Source of the DNA: [Clostridium] symbiosum
Lineage (GTDB): Bacteria > Bacillota > Clostridia > Lachnospirales > Lachnospiraceae
DNA: 37,840 nucleotides
Assembly (NCBI GenBank): GCA_021769625.1
Contig: JAETSN010000042.1
Location: 1 to 37,840 of the forward strand
Direction: 5' to 3'
The notes beneath the pieces are model-generated. The model saw only the letters and a program-made list of their open reading frames with translations, was not told the DNA's origin and searched no databases. The position numbers and the translations under genes were made by a program. Positions within the stretch are counted from its first letter, which is position 1, and every line of letters begins with the position of its first letter. Shown here one piece after another: positions 12,216 through 37,840 of this stretch.

Positions 12216-13519
12216 AGAAACTTCAAAGACTGGGAATCCTGTTTGCGCTGGGACTGATTCTCGCCGGATGCGGCGCAGGGAAGACGCAGACGGAGGAATT
12301 GCAGTCCGCCGTGGAGGAAGCGGCGCAGGACGGTGTAGGTTCTGCAGAAGATGAGGAGCAGAACGGCACGGGTTCGGAGAGGGAAGAAGGGCAGGACGGC
12401 ACAGGCTCTGCGAAGGAAAAGGAGCAGGACGCTGCAGATTCTGCGGGGAAAAAGGAGCAGAGCGGCACAGGCTCCGCAGAAGGGGCGGCGCAGGACGGAA
12501 CAAGTCCCGCGAGGGGAGCGGCAAAAGCATCGGAAGCCACCTACATAGATGTGCCGCTGTATGCCGGGAAGGCATATACGGAGATCAACGGCAACGTGCC
12601 CTTTTTTACCGATGACGAGTTATCCGCTGTGTCCTATGAATATTATGAAGAACTGGATGCGCTGGGAAGGTGCGGCGTATGTATGGCGAGCGTCGGGCAG
12701 GATATCATGCCTACAAAGGAGCGGGAGAGCATCGGGGATGTGAAACCCACCGGCTGGCATACTGTCAAATATGAGGGGATCGTTGACGGAAACTATCTTT
12801 ATAACCGATGCCATCTGCTGGGATTCCAGCTGACCGGGGAGAATGCCAACAGGAAGAATCTGATCACCGGGACAAGGTATATGAATGTGGAGGGGATGCT
12901 TCCCTTTGAAAATATGGTCGCCGATTATGTGAAGGAGACCGGAAACCATGTGATGTACAGGGTGACGCCTCTGTTTGACGGGGATAATCTGGTGGCGGAC
13001 GGCGTGCTGATGGAGGCGAAGTCTGTGGAGGATGACGGGGCGGATATCCTGTTTAATGTCTTTTGCTACAATGTCCAGCCCGGGGTGTCCATTGATTATA
13101 CGACGGGGGAGAGCTGTTTGGACGAGAGCGCCGCGGCGGCATCTGCGGCGGCAGGGCAGCAGGCCGGCCGGGTGTCGGCGGGGGGATCGCAGCCACAGAG
13201 GGCGGAGCAACAGGCGGCAGGGCAGCCGCAGGCACCGGCGCAGTCGGAACAGCAGGCACCGGTACAGCAGCCGGAGCAGGTAAAAGAGCAGACACAACCG
13301 GAACAGACCGCATCGCAGCCCGCTTTTGCGGAGAGCGGCAGCTATGCCGTCAACGCGAAAAACGGAAAGATCCATATAGTGGGGCAATGTCCGGCGACGG
13401 GATCTTCTGACAAAGCGATGAGCGAGCCGGTGTACTTTAATACATATGAAGAAGCGGAGGCATATTCTGCTATGATCGCTCCGGGTGAGAATAAAAGACG
13501 ATGCGGCAACTGCTGGTAA
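12212..13519 (+). CDS. Lipoprotein DNA/RNA non-specific endonuclease (EndA-like)
   Basis: A lipoprotein signal peptide with lipobox LAGC (Cys20) would anchor this 435-residue protein outside the membrane. Residues 35-100 are six tandem 11-residue repeats of the form E..EQDGTGSA. The nuclease domain follows: YNRCHLLGFQL with probable catalytic H201 (the position of the DRGH His in EndA/Spd), then GENANRKNLITGT with the metal-binding Asn, and MNVEGMLPFE. A Gln/Pro/Ala-rich linker (about 310-375) leads to a C-terminal module (YAVNAKNGKIHIVG.CP and ending CGNCW) with three Cys, resembling small metal-binding modules on such nucleases. The start overlaps the upstream stop, with GGAGGAAAGGG as SD. 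Likely roles are nucleic-acid scavenging for phosphate or DNA uptake. The adjacent pst operon is suggestive but unproven. Confidence 0.82.
   Translation: MKKLQRLGILFALGLILAGCGAGKTQTEELQSAVEEAAQDGVGSAEDEEQNGTGSEREEGQDGTGSAKEKEQDAADSAGKKEQSGTGSAEGAAQDGTSPARGAAKASEATYIDVPLYAGKAYTEINGNVPFFTDDELSAVSYEYYEELDALGRCGVCMASVGQDIMPTKERESIGDVKPTGWHTVKYEGIVDGNYLYNRCHLLGFQLTGENANRKNLITGTRYMNVEGMLPFENMVADYVKETGNHVMYRVTPLFDGDNLVADGVLMEAKSVEDDGADILFNVFCYNVQPGVSIDYTTGESCLDESAAAASAAAGQQAGRVSAGGSQPQRAEQQAAGQPQAPAQSEQQAPVQQPEQVKEQTQPEQTASQPAFAESGSYAVNAKNGKIHIVGQCPATGSSDKAMSEPVYFNTYEEAEAYSAMIAPGENKRRCGNCW
12314..12511 (+). repeat. 33-base coding repeats (six 11-residue units)
   Basis: Six consecutive 33-base units inside the nuclease lipoprotein gene encode EEAAQDGVGSA, EDEEQNGTGSE, REEGQDGTGSA, KEKEQDAADSA, GKKEQSGTGSA and EGAAQDGTSPA. 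The units are diverged in DNA but keep exact length and frame. They form an acidic, flexible stalk after the lipid anchor. Confidence 0.85.
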
Positions 13520-13746: not shown

Positions 13747-14697
13747 ATGAAAATGAAAAAAATTGTTGCAATGGCACTGACGCTGACTGTGCTCGGAGGC
13801 GTGCTTGCCGGATGCGGAAGCGCTGACGGTACGACGGCAGGAACGGAAAGCGTACCCGCGGAAGAGAGCGCGGCGGAAGAAAATGTATCCGCGGAGGAGA
13901 GCGCGGCGGAAGAAAATGCATCCGCGGAAGAGAACGCACCTGCTGAGGAAAACAACGGGGAGACACAGGTCGTTTCCACGGACGGCTCCACTTCCATGGA
14001 AAAGGTGATCGGGTTTTTAAGTGAAGCTTACATGGAAGAAAACGGAAATATCAAAGTGACTTATAATCCGACAGGTTCCGGTTCCGGTATTCAGGCTGTC
14101 AGCGAAGGCAGATGCGATATCGGCCTCTCGAGCCGTGATCTGAAAGAGGAGGAACAGGCGGATCTGGTGGGTACGGTTGTTGCCCTCGACGGGATCGCTG
14201 TCATCGTGAATCCCGAAAACACGGTGGAGGACCTGAGCGTGGAACAGATAGCAAAGATCTATACCGGCGAGATCACCAACTGGAAGGACGTAGGCGGTGA
14301 GGATGCGCCCGTTGTCTGCATCGGCAGAGAGGCGGCTTCCGGCACAAGAGACGGATTTGAGGAAGTGACAGGCACGAAAGACAACTGCGTATATTCCCAG
14401 GAACTTACATCGACGGGAGATGTGGTGCAGACGGTTTCCGGCAATCCGGGCGCCATCGGTTATGCCTCCGTTGCCTCTTTGAATGAGAGCGTAAAGGCAG
14501 TCAGCGTGGAGGGTGTGGTACCGTCCACAGAGACGATCCAGAGCGGGGAGTATAAGATCCAGAGGAACTTTGTGCTGGTGACAAAAAAGGATGCGCCTTT
14601 GTCGGAGGCGGCGCAGAACTTCTTTGACTTTGCCACAGGGGCAGCGGCGGATGATCTGATCACAAAAGCCGGCGCAGTGCCTGTAAAGCGGGGATAA
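13747..14697 (+). CDS. pstS: Phosphate ABC transporter substrate-binding lipoprotein PstS
   Basis: This extracellular lipoprotein captures inorganic phosphate for the PstCAB transporter. The signal peptide ends in lipobox LAGC (Cys23). A spacer of about 45 residues rich in Ala, Glu and Ser (AEESAAEEN-type repeats) separates the anchor from the binding domain. Phosphate-contact blocks are visible: STDGSTSMEK, PTGSGSGIQAVSEGRCDIGLSSRDLK and GREAASGTRDGFEE. The C-terminus (FFDFATG..ADDLITKAGAVPV) is typical. At 316 residues it is usual for Clostridia. ATG 13747 follows AAGGAGTGA. It is the first gene of pstSCAB-phoU, five bases before pstC. Confidence 0.95.
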   Translation: MKMKKIVAMALTLTVLGGVLAGCGSADGTTAGTESVPAEESAAEENVSAEESAAEENASAEENAPAEENNGETQVVSTDGSTSMEKVIGFLSEAYMEENGNIKVTYNPTGSGSGIQAVSEGRCDIGLSSRDLKEEEQADLVGTVVALDGIAVIVNPENTVEDLSVEQIAKIYTGEITNWKDVGGEDAPVVCIGREAASGTRDGFEEVTGTKDNCVYSQELTSTGDVVQTVSGNPGAIGYASVASLNESVKAVSVEGVVPSTETIQSGEYKIQRNFVLVTKKDAPLSEAAQNFFDFATGAAADDLITKAGAVPVKRG

Positions 14698-16516: not shown

Positions 16517-17269
16517 ATGAAAGAAAGCATAACGACAAAAAATCTGAATTTATGGTATGGCACGAACCATGCACTGAAAGGGATCGATCTTTCTTTTGCG
16601 GAGAAAGAGATCATTGCCCTGATCGGTCCTTCGGGATGCGGAAAATCCACTTATCTGAGGACGCTGAACCGTATGAATGATCTGGTGGACAACTGCCGGA
16701 TCGAGGGGGAGATCAGGCTGTTTGGCAGAGATATCTATCAGGATATGGATGTCACCGTTCTGCGGAAGCGGGTAGGGATGGTATTCCAAAAACCCAATCC
16801 CTTTCCCATGAGCATTTATGACAATATCGCCTACGGGCCAAAGATACATGGGATCCGCGGAAAGGCAAAACTGGATGAGATCGTGGAGCGCTCCCTGCGG
16901 CAGGCAGCGATCTGGGAAGAGTGTAAAGACAGGCTGAAGAAAAGCGCGCTGGGACTGAGCGGCGGGCAGCAGCAGAGGCTATGTATTGCCCGGGCGCTGG
17001 CGGTGGAACCGGAGGTTTTGCTGATGGATGAGCCGACTTCGGCGCTGGATCCTATTTCCACATCCAGGATAGAAGATCTGGTGATGGAACTGAAAGCAGA
17101 CTATACGATCATCATGGTGACCCACAATATGCAGCAGGCGGTAAGGGTTGCGGATAAAACGGCATTCTTCCTGCTGGGGGAAGTGGTGGAATACGCAGAC
17201 ACGGAGAAGATGTTTTCGAAGCCCGCCGATAAGAGGACGGAGGACTATATCACAGGGAGGTTTGGCTGA
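16517..17269 (+). CDS. pstB: Phosphate ABC transporter ATP-binding protein PstB
   Basis: This ATPase drives phosphate import. Over 250 residues it shows Walker [10 protein letters not shown] (37-45), the Q-loop in [13 protein letters not shown], signature LSGGQQQR (from 147), Walker [13 protein letters not shown] (from 167, with D171-E172) and switch His in MVTHNMQQA. The [12 protein letters not shown] sequence is diagnostic for PstB. ATG 16517 follows GGGAG. The stop overlaps the phoU start (TGATG). Confidence 0.97.
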
Positions 17270-17922
17270 TGCGGAATGAATATAACAGACAGCTTGGGCG
17301 GCTTAACGCGGAGCTTGCCGAGATGGGCAATTTATGTGTGAGTGCCATAACGGACGCCGTGAGGTATCTGACGGAAGGGAGAGGCGAGGACAAAACTGCC
17401 TGTCTGGGCGCGGAGAGGCAGATCGACGAGAAGGAGCGGGATATCGAGGCGCTCTGCATCAAGCTGATATTGAAGCAGCAGCCCGTGGCGGGGGATCTGC
17501 GGAACGTTTCCGCCGCGCTGAAGATGATCTCCGATATGGAGAGGATCGGCGATCAGGCATCGGATATCGTGGAGATCGCTCCCTATGTGGCGGGAAGCGG
17601 CCTCGAGCGGGAGCCGCTCCTGAAAAAAATGGCGGAAGCCGCGATAAAAATGGTCTCGGAGAGCGTGGATTCTTTCGTGCGGCATGATAAAGAGATCGCC
17701 GGCAGGGTGATAGAAGATGACGATCTGGTGGATGAGCTGTTTGACAAAATAAAGAAGGAGCTGATCGGCTCTATCGCGGCGGGGAGCGGCAATGCGGAAG
17801 CGCTGTTGGATCTGCTGATGATCGCCAAGTACTTTGAGCGGATCGGAGATCATGCGGAAAATATCGCGGGATGGGTGATCTACTCGATAACGGGGGAGCA
17901 TGTGGAAGTGGGAGGAGTATGA
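17269..17922 (+). CDS. phoU: Phosphate transport regulator PhoU
   Basis: PhoU links the Pst transporter to the PhoR kinase so that the Pho regulon is off when phosphate is plentiful, and it limits Pst activity. The 217-residue, all-helical protein shows the two repeated three-helix bundles with metal-binding E/D-xxxD signatures, seen as MISDMERIGDQASDIVE and MIAKYFERIGDHAENIAGWVIY. It is coupled to pstB by a one-base stop/start overlap. Its stop is 11 bases before the structured element at 17934. Confidence 0.95.
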   Translation: MRNEYNRQLGRLNAELAEMGNLCVSAITDAVRYLTEGRGEDKTACLGAERQIDEKERDIEALCIKLILKQQPVAGDLRNVSAALKMISDMERIGDQASDIVEIAPYVAGSGLEREPLLKKMAEAAIKMVSESVDSFVRHDKEIAGRVIEDDDLVDELFDKIKKELIGSIAAGSGNAEALLDLLMIAKYFERIGDHAENIAGWVIYSITGEHVEVGGV

Positions 17923-17933
17923 AACGGACGGAC

Positions 17934-18090
17934 GCCGGTAAGAACATAAAATACTTCGTCGTCACGCTCGCGCTGGCTCTGTTTTTCAAGAGCCTGTGAA
18001 AGAACGCAGCGGACACTAAGCTCGTGAGGGACCTCGCTAAGTGCCGGCGTTTTTCAAAGGGCTCCTTCAGTATTTTATGTTCTTACCGGC
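17934..18090 (+). repeat. Structured intergenic element, copy A (covarying long helix)
   Basis: A perfect 22-bp helix (17934-17955 with 18069-18090) with conserved ends GCCGG/CCGGC encloses a core. The core holds a small hairpin (GGCTCT/AGAGCC) and an inner stem AACGC/GCGTT (18003-18007 with 18047-18051) followed by a T-run. It is homologous to 28972-29108. The two copies differ at five positions in each outer arm, and every change is matched on the other arm; the inner pair C18007-G18047 is T-A in copy B. It lies between the convergent phoU and SEDS genes, where it can act as a terminator. What it is beyond that is unknown. Confidence 0.8.
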
Positions 18091-18122
18091 TGGCTGTGGT
18101 GTTAACTGGATGACGTTTATTT

Positions 18123-18187: not shown

Positions 18188-19552
18188 TCATTTCCCTTCT
18201 ACCCGCTCGATCCGCAGGCGGAACCGGGGGGCGGTTTCCTTCAGTTCCGGCAGCAGGTTTGTGTTGCGGTATACCGAGAGGATGATCCCCATAAACAGGA
18301 AATTGATGATGGTGCAGTGCAGGCCATAAGTCAGAAACGGCATATCGATGCTTACCGTGAGGCCGATGCCGAAATTCATCGCCACATAGACGACGGTCTT
18401 CAGGATCAGGATACTGCTGCAGGAGATCCCCAGAAGAAAGCCCAGACGGTTGTGCTGTGTAAGGGAGATATGCAGTGCCCGCAGGAAGCAGACTGCGATG
18501 ATCCCGACGACAAGGAAAGCGGCGAGCAGGCCGAAGTAGGCGGTCAGACAGATCAGCACATAGTCACACCACGCGCCGGTAAGTTCGCCGACTTTTCCGA
18601 TGGTCCCGCCGCCGAGAAGAGAAGCGCCCAAGAGCTGGTTGCGCACGAGCAATGTCTGGTATCCCGCCGCATCGGCGTAGAGGGAGGGATTCAGCATAAC
18701 CCGGATGCGCATGATCTGGTATTCCGCAAGATGCAGGAACCGTCCGCCAAAGAGGAGTACATCCCCGAAAAGCAGTGCGGGAATTCCCACGATGGCCGCC
18801 GCCAGTATACCCGTCTGCAGTTTTTTTCTGCCGCCGAAGATTCCCCTGCCGGCCGCCGCGCAGAGTGTGATCAGGCAGGCGATGACAGAGAGAACCATCG
18901 AAGCCGAAAAATAGGTGCCGGAGAGTAAAAGGAGAAGCGTATTGAGGCAGAGGATTGCCGCCGCCTTCAATACACCTGTTCCCTTCTGCCCGCGAAAACG
19001 GTAGCAGATCGCGGCAAACAGAGGGACAAACAGTATGGCGATGGTGTGTCCGAACCGGATATACTGATAATACGCAAATAATGGAAGGTGCAGGGAAAAG
19101 ATACTGCCCGCAAGGTACACGCCGTAGATCGGCCATATATGTCTGGCAGGTATCCGGTAATCCCCGAAATAAACCAATGCCATGACGGCGAAACCGATCA
19201 GGTTATACTGGATCGTCCGTATCTGATAGGTGCCCGAGACGGCGCTGTTGTCATACTGGGAAACGATGATGGACTGCATGATGATGCCGATCAGGGTCAG
19301 GATGGCCATCGCCCCAAACATCCAGATATCCGTCTTCGGCCGGTGTATCCTGTCGAGCTGGATGCCGGTATCCACAGGGTTCCCCATCTCTTTTACCGCC
19401 ATCTCCTCCGCTTTTTCTTCGTCCATTCCCTCCAGAAGATAGGCTTCCCTCTGATCCTCGATGTGGGCGGTGATCTCGGCGAGCACCAGCTCTTTTGCGT
19501 GTTTATTTCGGATCTGTTCCGTCAGGCTGTTTAAATATTCTGTTCTGTTCAT
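18188..19552 (-). CDS. SEDS (FtsW/RodA/SpoVE) superfamily protein with N-terminal permease-prefix domain
   Basis: The first ~75 residues (MNRTEYLNSLTEQIRNKHAK.., AHIEDQREAYLLEGMDEEKAEEMAVKEMGNP) are the helical prefix domain found on PadR-linked membrane proteins of Clostridia. About ten membrane spans of SEDS type follow, with the FtsW/RodA-like LLVRNQLLGASLLGGGTIG loop and GAWCDYVLICLTAYFG, where D is at the position of the SEDS catalytic Asp. SEDS proteins polymerise peptidoglycan glycan strands or flip precursors; this one is divergent and has no class B PBP beside it. I start at ATG 19552, six bases after GGAGG; an ATG at 19573 overlaps the padR stop. It is in an operon with padR. Confidence 0.75.
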   Translation of the reverse strand: MNRTEYLNSLTEQIRNKHAKELVLAEITAHIEDQREAYLLEGMDEEKAEEMAVKEMGNPVDTGIQLDRIHRPKTDIWMFGAMAILTLIGIIMQSIIVSQYDNSAVSGTYQIRTIQYNLIGFAVMALVYFGDYRIPARHIWPIYGVYLAGSIFSLHLPLFAYYQYIRFGHTIAILFVPLFAAICYRFRGQKGTGVLKAAAILCLNTLLLLLSGTYFSASMVLSVIACLITLCAAAGRGIFGGRKKLQTGILAAAIVGIPALLFGDVLLFGGRFLHLAEYQIMRIRVMLNPSLYADAAGYQTLLVRNQLLGASLLGGGTIGKVGELTGAWCDYVLICLTAYFGLLAAFLVVGIIAVCFLRALHISLTQHNRLGFLLGISCSSILILKTVVYVAMNFGIGLTVSIDMPFLTYGLHCTIINFLFMGIILSVYRNTNLLPELKETAPRFRLRIERVEGK

Positions 19553-19569
19553 CCTATTCCTCCAATCCA

Positions 19570-19899
19570 TCATACCCCATAGCAGAGGACGCTTGCCACC
19601 GCGTGGGAGTATTCCTGCCAGGAATTTTTCCGCTCCTGCAGTTCTTTTTTGCCTTTTCCCGTGATAGAGTAGTATTTCCGCACCTTCCCCTGGACCTCCT
19701 GCTCATAGCAGGTCAGAAGTCCCTTCTCCTCCATGCCGTGGAGCAGCGGGTAGAGGGTGCCGGCTTTCAGCGCGAAGATATTTTCCGAACGTTTCTTCAG
19801 TTCTTCGATCATTTCATAACCGTACATGTCCTTCTCCGACAGAAGCTTTAAGAGCAGCATCGTGGTACTGCCGGAAAGCAGGCTTTTATCGATTGCCAT
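19570..19899 (-). CDS. PadR-family transcriptional regulator
   Basis: This 109-residue winged-helix protein shows the PadR pattern: LLLKLLSEKDMYGYEMIEELKKRSE, then LKAGTLYPLLHGMEEKGLL, and a beta wing with VRKYYSITGKGKKEL. Small PadR proteins repress their own operon and release on stress or ligand. It is encoded immediately upstream of, and slightly overlapping, the SEDS gene. The 19-bp inverted repeat at 19928-19979 in front of it is the evident operator. ATG 19899 follows AAAGGAGGAAACACTT. Confidence 0.9.
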   Translation of the reverse strand: MAIDKSLLSGSTTMLLLKLLSEKDMYGYEMIEELKKRSENIFALKAGTLYPLLHGMEEKGLLTCYEQEVQGKVRKYYSITGKGKKELQERKNSWQEYSHAVASVLCYGV

Positions 19900-28019: not shown

Positions 28020-28955
28020 ATGGAAGAATTGATCCAAAACAAGCTGGAGTTTGCCGTACTCATCGATTCGGATAATATCAGCTCAAAATACGCATCCACG
28101 ATTTTTGATGAACTGGAAAAATACGGTTTTGCCTCCTGCAGGAGGATCTACGGAAACTGGTCGAAGGGAAACGGCTGGTCTGAAAAGACGCTTCTCGAAT
28201 ATTCCATTACGCCGATCCAGCAGTTTTCCTATACGGCGGGAAAAAACGCGACGGATATGGCGATGGTCATAGATGCCATGGATCTTTTGTATAAAGATAA
28301 GGTGGACGGTTTCTGTCTGGTGACCAGCGACAGTGATTTCACAAGGCTTGCCATGCGGCTTCGGGAAGAGAAAAAGTATGTGCTGGGGATGGGGGAGTCC
28401 AAGACGCCGGCGGCGCTGACCCGTTCCTGCAATAAATTTATTTACCTGAACCTGATCGACGATAAGAACGAGGAGGATGGCTTTGATCACAATGAGCTGG
28501 AGAACGTGACCAGCATCGAAGCGGTGAAAAAGTCCATCGCGGCGCTGTTTACGGAAAATGGCGGCAAGGCGCTGGATCTCGGCTATGTGGGACAGCGTAT
28601 CAGCGAGAGGTATACGGATTTCGACGTGCGAAATTACGGTTACGCGAAGCTCAGCGTGTTCGTGAAGGAGGAGATGCCCCAGTATCAGGTGGTGCGGGAG
28701 AAAAAGAAAACCTATCTGAAAGAGCAGGAGAAGGTTTCCCAGACTTCTCTTGAGACGGAAATTAAAGAGATGATCCGGGAAAACGGCGGCACCATCGACA
28801 ATCTTTCCATTATCAATGACGAGATCGGAAAGCGCCATCCGAATTTTGAGCTGAAATCCTACGGTTACAGCAGGATCTCCAGTTTCCTGCGCAGGATCCG
28901 TGGGCTGGAAGTCAATAATAACAGTGTGTTGCTCCAGAAAGAGGAGGAGGAGTGA
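28020..28955 (+). CDS. NYN-domain ribonuclease-like protein with two OST-HTH/LOTUS domains
   Basis: Residues 11-148 are a NYN (LabA/DUF88, PIN-like) nuclease fold with the acidic cluster D16 (AVLIDSDNIS), D79 (NATDMAMVIDAMD) and D104/D106 (LVTSDSDFTRLAMRLRE). Two LOTUS/OST-HTH RNA-binding domains follow (about 164-226 and 243-300). Each ends in the same signature, YGYAKLSVFV (206-215) and YGYSRISSFL (281-290). The pairing NYN plus LOTUS is that of eukaryotic MARF1 and of bacterial relatives with poorly known targets. It is soluble, with no partner gene in an operon. ATG 28020 follows AAAGAGGAAG. Structured element copy B begins 16 bases after its stop. Confidence 0.9.
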   Translation: MEELIQNKLEFAVLIDSDNISSKYASTIFDELEKYGFASCRRIYGNWSKGNGWSEKTLLEYSITPIQQFSYTAGKNATDMAMVIDAMDLLYKDKVDGFCLVTSDSDFTRLAMRLREEKKYVLGMGESKTPAALTRSCNKFIYLNLIDDKNEEDGFDHNELENVTSIEAVKKSIAALFTENGGKALDLGYVGQRISERYTDFDVRNYGYAKLSVFVKEEMPQYQVVREKKKTYLKEQEKVSQTSLETEIKEMIRENGGTIDNLSIINDEIGKRHPNFELKSYGYSRISSFLRRIRGLEVNNNSVLLQKEEEE

Positions 28956-28971
28956 GGTAATGGTACCGAAC

Positions 28972-29108
28972 GCCGGGAGGAAAATCAAATCCTCCGTCGC
29001 CACGCTTGCGCTCCGCAAAAAACGTAGCGGACACTAAGCTCGTGAAATACCTCGCTAAGTGCCGACGTTTTTTAAGGGGCTCCTTGAGGATTTGATTTTC
29101 CTCCCGGC
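28972..29108. repeat. Structured intergenic element, copy B (covarying long helix)
   Basis: Homologue of 17934-18090. A perfect helix of at least 22 bp (28972-28993 with 29087-29108; the next pair also matches) closes a core. The inner stem is AACGT/ACGTT (29021-29025 with 29065-29069), with T-runs on both strands at its foot (GTTTTTT on plus, and the complement of GCAAAAAACG on minus), so this copy looks like a bidirectional terminator. It lies between the convergent NYN-LOTUS and aldo/keto reductase genes. Confidence 0.8.
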
Positions 29109-29165
29109 TGTCTGATGGCATTAATCGAATAATACGGAGGGTTGGACTGTTACAAGGTGTTGCCG

Positions 29166-30347
29166 CTACCCCCAGAGTTTCAGCAGCCGTATGGCTTTCT
29201 GCGTCATGAAAAATCTGACGTCCTCCAGTTTGGAGGCGGCTTCCTTTAATTCTTTTCTGATCGGGATCTGCTGGGGGCAGTGGGTTTCGCATTTCCCGCA
29301 GGAGATACAGCCTGAGGCGTTGCTGTGCTGTTTGCGGAAGATGGTGCACTGCATGTATTCTCTTTTGGCGGAACTTTTTCCCTCCGCGTAGTAATTGTTA
29401 TAGCACCGGAAAGTTTCCGGGATATCTACGCCCCTCGGACAGGGCATGCAGTAGCCGCAGCCTGTACAGCCGACTTTTATGGTCTTTTGGATCTCCTGTT
29501 TTATCGTCTCAATAAAAGCAAAATCTTCATCGGTAAAATCTCCGGCTTTTGTCTCGTCAGCGATCCGGAGATTTTCTGTTACCATCTCCTCGGAATTCAT
29601 GCCGGATAAGACACAGGTCACTTCAGGCTGGCTGTAGAGCCATCGGAATGCCCATTCCGCCGCGCTGCGTTTTGGCGTATGCGCCGCGATGAGTTTCTTC
29701 GCGCTCTCCGGCAGCATGTCCACCAGTTTTCCGCCCCGGAGCCCTTCCATGATGATGACCGGAATGCCCTTCCCTGCGGCATACGACAGGCCCCGCCGTC
29801 CCGCCTGGGAATGTTCGTCCATATAGTTGTACTGGATCTGGGTAAAATCCCAGTCGTAGGCGTCGATCAGGCGGCAGAACATATCCGTATGGCCATGGTA
29901 GGAAAAGCCGATATGCCGGATCTTTCCGCTCTCTTTTTTCTCTTCGATCCACTTCTCGATACCCAGTTTCTTCAGATTTTCCCAGGTTTCGGTATCCGTC
30001 AGCATATGCATCAGATAGTAGTCGATATAGTCCGTGTGAAGCCGCCGCAGCTGTTCTTCAAACATCTTTTCGATGCCGTCCATAGATCTGATCAGGTAGT
30101 GGGGCAGCTTTGTCGCGATATTGATATGTTCCCGGCAGCCGATGCGCAGAAGGATCTCGCCTAAAGCGGCCTCGCTTCCCGGATAAACATAAGCCGTATC
30201 AAAATAGTTTACGCCGCCTTCCAGCGCCAGCCGCACTTCCTTTTCCGCTTTGTCAATGTCGATGCTGCCGCCCTTTCTGGTAAAACGCATGCAGCCGTAG
30301 CCTAAGAGGGAGATATCTTCCCCGTTTCTGTTTTTTCTGTATTGCAT
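29166..30347 (-). CDS. Aldo/keto reductase with C-terminal 2[4Fe-4S] ferredoxin domain
   Basis: The 393-residue protein has an AKR TIM barrel with catalytic residues in NYFDTAYVYPGSE (Asp, Tyr), ATKLPHY (Lys) and YYLMHML (His). After the barrel come two ferredoxin-like Cys clusters, CTGCGYCMPCP and CISCGKCETHCP, so electrons can pass between NAD(P)H and Fe-S centres or ferredoxin. This type is common in anaerobes and its substrates are mostly unknown. ATG 30347 is directly preceded by GGAGGT; an in-frame ATG nine codons upstream would place that SD inside the gene. Single-gene unit. Confidence 0.92.
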   Translation of the reverse strand: MQYRKNRNGEDISLLGYGCMRFTRKGGSIDIDKAEKEVRLALEGGVNYFDTAYVYPGSEAALGEILLRIGCREHINIATKLPHYLIRSMDGIEKMFEEQLRRLHTDYIDYYLMHMLTDTETWENLKKLGIEKWIEEKKESGKIRHIGFSYHGHTDMFCRLIDAYDWDFTQIQYNYMDEHSQAGRRGLSYAAGKGIPVIIMEGLRGGKLVDMLPESAKKLIAAHTPKRSAAEWAFRWLYSQPEVTCVLSGMNSEEMVTENLRIADETKAGDFTDEDFAFIETIKQEIQKTIKVGCTGCGYCMPCPRGVDIPETFRCYNNYYAEGKSSAKREYMQCTIFRKQHSNASGCISCGKCETHCPQQIPIRKELKEAASKLEDVRFFMTQKAIRLLKLWG

Positions 30348-30569
30348 AAGACCTCCGTTTGGTTCACTATCCATCAGTCAAATTTTCTTATATTTCTTAT
30401 GATTTCAATATAATAGTAACCCCTGATACTGTCAATTCCTTTTTGGCGGGAGGATGCCAGATAAGGAATGTTCGGCCCTGATCAATTGTTTTAAAAGGCA
30501 TGAATATAAAAAGAAATCCGGGACACCTTAAGAGCAGATAAAAGCGGATCAGGCAAGAGGGATAAAACA

Positions 30570-37724: not shown

Positions 37725-37840
37725 ATAAACTGACGAAGGAAGTTTATGTGCGCTACGGTGCAATTCGCAGAGCGAATCGCAGCGTTTCCCGATAAACTGA
37801 CGAAGGAAGTTTATGTGCGCTACGGTGCAATTCGCAGAGC
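37725..37840 (+). repeat. Tandem 67-base hairpin repeat after infB
   Basis: A 49-base segment beginning ATAAACTGACGAAGG is present at 37725-37773 and identically at 37792-37840, a 67-base period cut by the window edge. The unit contains two hairpins: ATAAACT/AGTTTAT (in the first copy extended to a 10-bp stem by the preceding CAC) and AATTCGC/GCGAAT. There may be more copies downstream before the next gene, expected to be rbfA. Confidence 0.85.

Follow-up and report, generated by a model that had tools for sequence, protein, structure and literature searches.

Short mobile hairpin elements in [Clostridium] symbiosum whose inner helix and outer arms change in different ways

The window analysed here, a stretch of 37,840 nucleotides on one contig of [Clostridium] symbiosum, carries two long hairpins, each situated in the gap between a pair of convergent genes. 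The genes and the parts of the two hairpins are as follows.

17269..17922, + strand: gene upstream of copy 1, PhoU (PF01895)
17930..18094, + strand: element copy 1, long form; covariance-model (R1) match, 143.8 bits
17934..17955, + strand: copy 1 outer stem, left arm, 22 bp
17963..17974, + strand: copy 1 conserved internal-loop motif CACGCTCGCGCT
17975..17994, + strand: copy 1 accessory hairpin GGCTCTGTTTTTCAAGAGCC, present in the long form only
17994..18056, + strand: copy 1 inner RNA-like hairpin (5' strand 17994-18020, 3' strand 18037-18056)
18050-18054, + strand: T5 run within the inner hairpin of copy 1
18069..18090, + strand: copy 1 outer stem, right arm
18101..18117, + strand: apparent remnant of the copy 1 right terminal inverted repeat, GTTAACTGGATGACGTT (compared by eye)
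18188..19573, - strand: gene convergent on copy 1, FtsW/RodA/SpoVE family (PF01098)
28020..28955, + strand: gene upstream of copy 2, NYN and OST-HTH/LOTUS domains
28968..29112, + strand: element copy 2, short form; R1 match, 171.1 bits
28972..28994, + strand: copy 2 left arm, 23 bp
29001..29012, + strand: copy 2 conserved internal-loop motif CACGCTTGCGCT
29015..29078, + strand: copy 2 inner RNA-like hairpin, with a T6 run at 29068-29073
29086..29108, + strand: copy 2 right arm
29117..29153, + strand: copy 2 right terminal inverted repeat, ending in GGACTGTTAC
29166..30374, - strand: gene convergent on copy 2, aldo/keto reductase with a 4Fe-4S domain

Both hairpins lie where the first-pass annotation had placed them, and their outer arms are 100% complementary over 22 bp in copy 1 and 23 bp in copy 2. 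The five arm pairs by which the copies had been said to differ (left positions 6, 8, 12, 15 and 20) are real and each is compensated, as is the sixth compensated pair reported for the inner stem, where C18007 lies opposite G18047. Fold stability exceeds that of dinucleotide shuffles in both cases, with z -5.25 for copy 1 and z -6.68 for copy 2 and 0 of 200 shuffles each. No Rfam gathering score was reached on either copy, in keeping with the earlier failure to name an RNA family; the whole window gave tRNA only at the gathering threshold, and the sole match on the two copies at E<=5 was a 13-bit lncRNA. No left terminal inverted repeat of copy 1 was recognised by eye. Two other kinds of repeat occur elsewhere in the window: tandem 33-nt repeats at 12315-12507 and 13846-13944, whose unit is a multiple of three and which we would guess to lie inside lipoprotein genes, and a 49-nt direct repeat with identical units at 37725-37773 and 37792-37840, right where the contig ends and possibly an assembly end effect.

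The two window hairpins are members of an extensive family of short, mobile, non-coding elements that apparently has no name. A covariance model and alignment were built from 34 diverse copies, in which 27 of the 49 predicted pairs keep their pairing with both sides changed, and a search with this model for other members, as the first-pass annotation had proposed, found them to be abundant in the organism's own genome, its genus and its family. The own genome holds at least 148 model matches (150 candidates scored), a lower bound, as a few copies in the examined stretches are missing from that list; a nucleotide search yielded 182 candidates, 40 of which were scored, and a 22-nt core pattern with at most three mismatches gave 113 matches against 1 for the reversed control. 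Matches sit at the ends of contigs C51, C85, C84, C98, C16 and C126, as expected because repeats break assemblies. Seven of eight same-genus genomes are positive, with 78 (G006), 31 (G001), 12 (G003), 7 (G004), 6 (G005), 5 (G008), 3 (G007) and 0 (G002) matches. Further out, 89 of 250 sampled genomes of the same bacterial family match at E<=1e-4, a count that includes the own genome and was made with no more than 12 scored candidates from each genome, and 11 of 196 genomes match in an order-wide sample, all 11 belonging to this same family. The idea that the window merely holds two hairpins alike by chance, or one simple terminator that was duplicated, with no wider family, drew on the two copies themselves, nothing further having been found in its favour; it is refuted by the core-pattern, own-genome and family-wide matches, and we give it practically no credence.

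Copies in other genera keep the core, in most cases with a CGCTYYCGCT-like loop, CGYAGCGG and TAAG...CTAAG, and their arms differ in sequence while mostly retaining pairing, with a median arm of 22 nt; matches span about 140-200 nt. Far longer arms are seen at L251:1522-1668 and L235:1476-1623 (82 and 67 nt, of which 79 and 65 are matched); the L235 palindrome extends out to the terminal repeats, and L251 lies less than 0.9 kb from a contig end. The apical loop of the core carries differing small hairpins across copies (ATGTGAAATTTTCACAT and longer, for example in L010, L015 and L188), as if loops had been exchanged or inserted. Several candidate matches were set aside: six loci from a contig pattern scan gave no covariance-model match and were taken as chance, and G028, from another family of the same order, has a 28-nt match in the arm region only, where the model gives none. 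No element match was found in plasmids and phages (blastn) or in viral contigs (one exact pattern). At eight family loci searched against Rfam at E<=0.5, the sole above-threshold match lay beside an element and not on it, and a microRNA match overlapping the L213 copies was sub-threshold, at 28.6 of 160 bits. A copy in another genus is followed, 114 nt further downstream, by a Clostridiales-1 RNA at L210:1760-1967 (RF01699, 87.1 bits). Text searches of the literature returned, in the portions of papers retrieved, none that is apparently about this element, and the motif-letter matches there were chance. The element seems to be a 3'-end element not described before, with members across a single bacterial family.

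Covariation in the outer helix is extensive. Among 34 sequences, 19 of 23 outer pairs have changed on both sides, against a shuffle mean of 11.3 and with 0 of 500 shuffles reaching the observed value, and sliding the partner columns abolishes the signal. A tree-based null, made from 30 simulations along a tree built from the element core, was applied to 210 copies; six truncated or gapped rows had been removed from 216 before this step and before event inference. Here, 20 of 23 outer pairs pass at E<0.05, namely 19 of the first 22 and the 23rd, together with 4 of 23 inner pairs and 0 of 3 in the small predicted side hairpin, while 0 of 4704 off-structure column pairs covary. The inner stem has less covariation power because it varies less. 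Arm variety is large, with 162 haplotypes among the 200 copies that have at most three mismatches in 21 pairs.

The perfect covariation described from the window holds for that pair of copies but not for every copy. Among the 146 own rows, which include L006:1-81, a cut duplicate of the L037 copy, the 22-bp arms are fully Watson-Crick in 86, carry one or two mismatches in 51 and carry at least three in 9. This last group includes cut or gapped rows as well as the chimeras L038 and L048, whose left and right arms derive from different arm types and which argue against perfect maintenance. Uncompensated arm changes, which were looked for in the further copies, are present but few.

Analysis of gene neighbours, made with a simple hexamer gene caller that called both neighbours for 138 of the 146 own rows, reveals a strongly oriented placement. 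Tandem same-sense layouts account for 89 copies and tandem antisense layouts for 17 (p 6e-13), with a further 17 divergent and 15 convergent, so that the location between convergent genes noted earlier describes both window copies but not the family. In 104 of 138 copies the left side of the element looks onto the 3' end of a gene, and the stop codon precedes the start of the model by a median of 16.5 nt. Runs of five or more T in the 3' half of the core were counted in own copies (122 of 146), in the genus (54 of 70) and in the family (19 of 55). From the position behind stop codons together with the T-run, we infer that the core is a transcribed 3'-end hairpin which, judged by its sequence, would be able to act as a terminator in this genus. 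A simple terminator scan flagged neither window copy, we think because the hairpin loop and bulges exceed its limits. Bidirectional intrinsic terminators consist of an A-run, a hairpin and a T-run, and the element core is built likewise; it differs from them in the long outer stem that encloses it and in the scarcity of the T-run among family copies.

The element is a MITE-type, non-coding mobile element. It is short, dispersed and multi-copy and lacks coding capacity; it possesses terminal inverted repeats, yet most copies are without them; and it shows a fixed-length target-site duplication and empty sites in relatives. Specifically, ends resembling GTAACAGTTCAG (at most 2 mismatches of 12) are found on both sides of 5 of the 146 own rows and on one side of 15 more, compared with 0 of 146 control flanks, and relaxed pieces of the terminal repeat are found in 77 of 146 own rows versus 4 of 146 control flanks. 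Among genus rows none of 70 has the strict repeat, against 1 of 70 controls, and among family rows 2 of 55 have it, against 0 of 55 controls; in the own genome its pattern has 6 matches. Target duplications were scored in all six copies with both ends, five own and L235 from another genus: 8 of 8 letters agree in L036, L052 and L078, 7 of 8 in L235, 6 of 8 in L030 and 3 of 8 in L026.

Empty sites were identified by eye for copy 2: in G001, G004, G005, G006, G007 and G008 the same two convergent genes have no copy between them, and the spacer is short or holds other content. At this junction G006 has an ordinary terminator-like hairpin, and G005 (L260) has two tandem copies of a GC-rich unit (TAAGACCGCCGGCGGAGCGGGCGGGCGTTGGCTGG), which is another kind of repeat. 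G002 and G003 have another gene on the downstream side. The PhoU gene beside copy 1 gave matches of only 27-34 nt in relatives, hence no orthologous site to compare.

The driver transposase was not found among the IS66 DDE and Y1 searches. IS66 was rejected, the own genome having 0 matches to its DDE domain, and so was Y1/RAYT, because the number of Y1 matches does not follow element copy number: the own genome (G000) has 1, and the eight relatives, in the order given above, have 1 (a fragment), 0, 4, 0, 13, 2, 4 and 0. In the examined loci, 9 of 26 end motifs lay away from elements, and by eye none pointed to a transposase. One such motif, at L262:1342-1373, folds alone into a tight hairpin that carries a T-run (GTAACAGTGCAGCC GAAA GGCTGAACTGTTAC CTTTTT), so that the ends of the element resemble a stand-alone terminator. 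Mobility, the family-wide spread and the siting mostly just behind stop codons all go beyond what the first-pass annotation had claimed.

The inner hairpin and the outer arms of these elements change in two distinct modes. Over 216 rows, the outer 22 pairs comprise 4654 cells, of which 4497 are Watson-Crick, 51 G-U, 67 A-C and 39 other, whereas the inner cells include 344 G-U, 46 A-C and 73 other, with 177 of the 344 G-U cells contributed by one pair whose commonest state is U-G. Counted free of the alignment, arm mismatches are A-C 39, G-U 19 and other 12 in own copies (at most 4 mismatches) and A-C 18, G-U 23 and other 18 in relatives. Events come from parsimony reconstruction on a tree of the short core sequences, on which reshuffling between arms and cores would mimic double changes; they amount in the outer arms to 33.9 from Watson-Crick to G-U and 40.5 to A-C, with 297 transition-type and 451 transversion-type double changes, and in 20 inner pairs to 58.9 and 18.0, with 99.8 transition-type and 13.6 transversion-type double changes. 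The outer and inner helices differ in the ratio of G-U to A-C (p 1e-4) and in the transition:transversion ratio of double changes (p 5e-23), in tests that treat the inferred events as independent. A plus-strand RNA helix tolerates G-U but not A-C, and by this measure, of the two helices, only the inner one behaves like plus-strand RNA. Reversions to Watson-Crick in the inner helix number 38.0 from G-U and 0.2 from A-C; in the outer arms those from A-C (17.7) exceed those from G-U (5.1), an excess that arm copying leaves unexplained.

This contrast bears on the choice that the first-pass annotation had offered between selection on the fold and template-directed repair. Both are apparently at work, on different parts of the element: selection on the fold suits the inner hairpin with its RNA-like changes, and the outer arms favour template-directed maintenance. 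Selection of the whole hairpin as plus-strand RNA, outer arms included, is one rival; the element would serve as a 3' UTR stabiliser, an RNase III site or a terminator, and each compensated pair would result from two ordinary mutations. The strong fold stability, the co-oriented siting behind stop codons, the RNA-like inner hairpin and the low rate at which the element has changed at one junction shared between species (L009/L104, below) are all in line with this. We nevertheless consider it unlikely, given that the outer arms, unlike the inner stem of those very copies, have no preference for G-U over A-C in either cells or events, that transversion-type pair swaps are the majority in the outer arms and rare in the inner stem, and that the right arm would be absent from the RNA if transcription ended at the core T-run.

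Recent arm changes were followed through closely related haplotypes. Haplotypes one pair apart are separated by 30 compensated versus 23 single changes, and at edges of at most three the transition:transversion ratio is 61:13 for single and 59:56 for double changes. Nearby flanks give 84:29, 78:19 and 198:62, similar to the single arm changes, which behave as unselected recent mutations would. The ratio for double changes speaks against blind arm copying, which predicts that of single changes; saturation at hot positions such as 3 and 6 may, though this is unproved, explain the excess of transversion-type double changes, and position 3 has already been through all four pairs. Between near haplotypes, compensated changes show no significant clustering (69 adjacent versus 61.3 expected, p 0.10). 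Template switching should leave some clustered tracts, and their lack counts against copying by that route.

An alternative that treats both strands equally and leaves the arm letters free is selection of the outer arms as a DNA shape, a cruciform or single-strand hairpin recognised by a transposase, a resolvase or a nucleoid protein. The strand symmetry of the mismatches, the pairing of very different arm sequences in many genera and the signs of mobility would all follow from it. The terminal repeats and 8-bp duplications instead suggest an ordinary transposase acting on sequence, the arms are paired even in copies without recognisable terminal repeats, and no candidate protein was found among the few searched; this alternative, too, appears improbable.

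Much less probable still is that the left arm and loop form a short gene, encoding a 25-codon peptide such as MVPNAGRKIKSSVATLALRKKRSGH, with arm variation being synonymous. Within the own genome the pattern is suggestive, as an ATG lies in frame at most 8 codons upstream in 56 of 146 rows versus 12 in each other frame, and close compensated changes fall at third positions in 32 of 56 cases (distinct changes 27 of 52, p 0.007). In relatives, however, the third-position bias is absent (57:73:62 at edges of at most 8) and the ATG is present in 3 of 55 family copies; moreover, few of the ATGs inspected have a good ribosome-binding site, one-base indels are common in the core (GGACAC/GGTAC, GTGAAA/GAAA), and single left-arm changes are not limited to third positions (10 of 23 distinct). 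The coding reading was set aside on the missing bias in relatives, the rarity of the ATG in the family and the core indels.

Junctions shared between species, found by comparison of flanks and then read directly in the arms, allow changes to be observed in place. The element is present in both species in 23 comparisons, and in 9 of these the partner's arms are the nearest of its genome. Because L119 enters the comparisons twice, and because of an artefact in L111/L118 (below), single junction pairs are cited here without a sum; in both L119 comparisons the arms are of unequal length. No arm change separates L009 from L104; one compensated pair separates L189 from L148, and two separate L080 from L100 and L180 from L130. 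Uncompensated pairs accompany the compensated ones in L101/L102 (two compensated, one uncompensated) and L188/L092 (four and two). For L111/L118, two double changes had been scored and proved to be an alignment artefact, with no pair change within 22 bp. All nine differing pairs are compensated in L186/L142, whose arms are not mutual best matches (rank 3 of 36). Judging by the compensated pairs at shared junctions, compensation seems to take place without transposition. Quite different arms occupy the shared junctions of L061/L134, L181/L122 and L187/L144, and may represent separate insertions or replaced arms. Divergence of the element against that of its flanks is 4/165 versus 9.5% in L009/L104, 5/144 versus 4.8% in L101/L102 and 2/146 versus 4.5% in L111/L118; the element does not always change more slowly than its flanks.

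The reading we prefer, at about even confidence, is a mobile MITE-type element with an RNA-selected core, whose arms are kept complementary mainly by arm-to-arm copying. A full-length copy would comprise an 8-bp target duplication, a terminal inverted repeat starting GTAACAGTTCAG, the left arm, the core, the right arm and a terminal repeat, and would be moved by a transposase acting in trans. Insertions, found mostly just behind stop codons and oriented as the gene, would be retained as transcribed 3'-end hairpins with the look of an intrinsic terminator in this genus, and their terminal repeats would decay. The inner hairpin would be selected as plus-strand RNA, and the outer 22-23 bp stem would stay complementary chiefly through events in the DNA: whenever one arm mutated, the change would be overwritten by the other arm, or copied to it, through hairpin-templated synthesis by quasipalindrome correction or template switching, so that the arms drift together. 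Stated more sharply, this is one hairpin with two rules, in which an RNA-selected inner helix is enclosed by a self-rewriting outer palindrome with near-perfect stems and almost unlimited letters, a formulation to which we assign slightly less than even confidence.

Several described systems share parts of this picture. The bcr1-bcr3 repeats of the Bacillus cereus group are short, intergenic, high-copy and MITE-like, as is the present element, and often lie in UTRs, and bcr10 and bcr18 of that group have conserved secondary structures (PMC3446304). These repeats belong to another taxon and are likened here by description and not by sequence, and the accessible portion of that report describes no division into an RNA-like core and arms that are strand-symmetric (PMC3446304). 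REP/REPIN sequences with RAYT are likewise intergenic palindromes in high copy, for which action on transcripts has been proposed (PMC3733652, PMC3116915); REPs measure 20-40 bp with GTAG or CGTC tags, and the excerpt consulted reports CGTC repeats in five phyla, with no mention of Firmicutes or Clostridi (PMC3733652). The present element differs in its length of 140-200 nt, in young copies that bear terminal repeats and 8-bp duplications, and in a copy number that does not track Y1 transposase number. Template switching, for which E. coli quasipalindromes offer a related system (PMC7202029), has been argued to maintain RNA hairpins by the mechanism proposed here, with compensated stem changes that pass through no wobble intermediates; the cases described in the available part of that work are rRNA and microRNA genes, and here it would concern a mobile family (PMC8794818).

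What is unusual in the present case is the contrast between inner and outer helix within one element, together with the number of copies. Compensated changes are widely regarded as proof of RNA selection, and the element supplies an internal control in that its inner helix takes the G-U path of RNA and its outer helix does not. If arm copying is true, covariation in long repeat stems would not by itself prove RNA selection without a test for wobble pairs, and the many copies would make copying rates measurable. The family would then preserve, naturally and many times over, a record of hairpin-templated copying throughout a bacterial genome.
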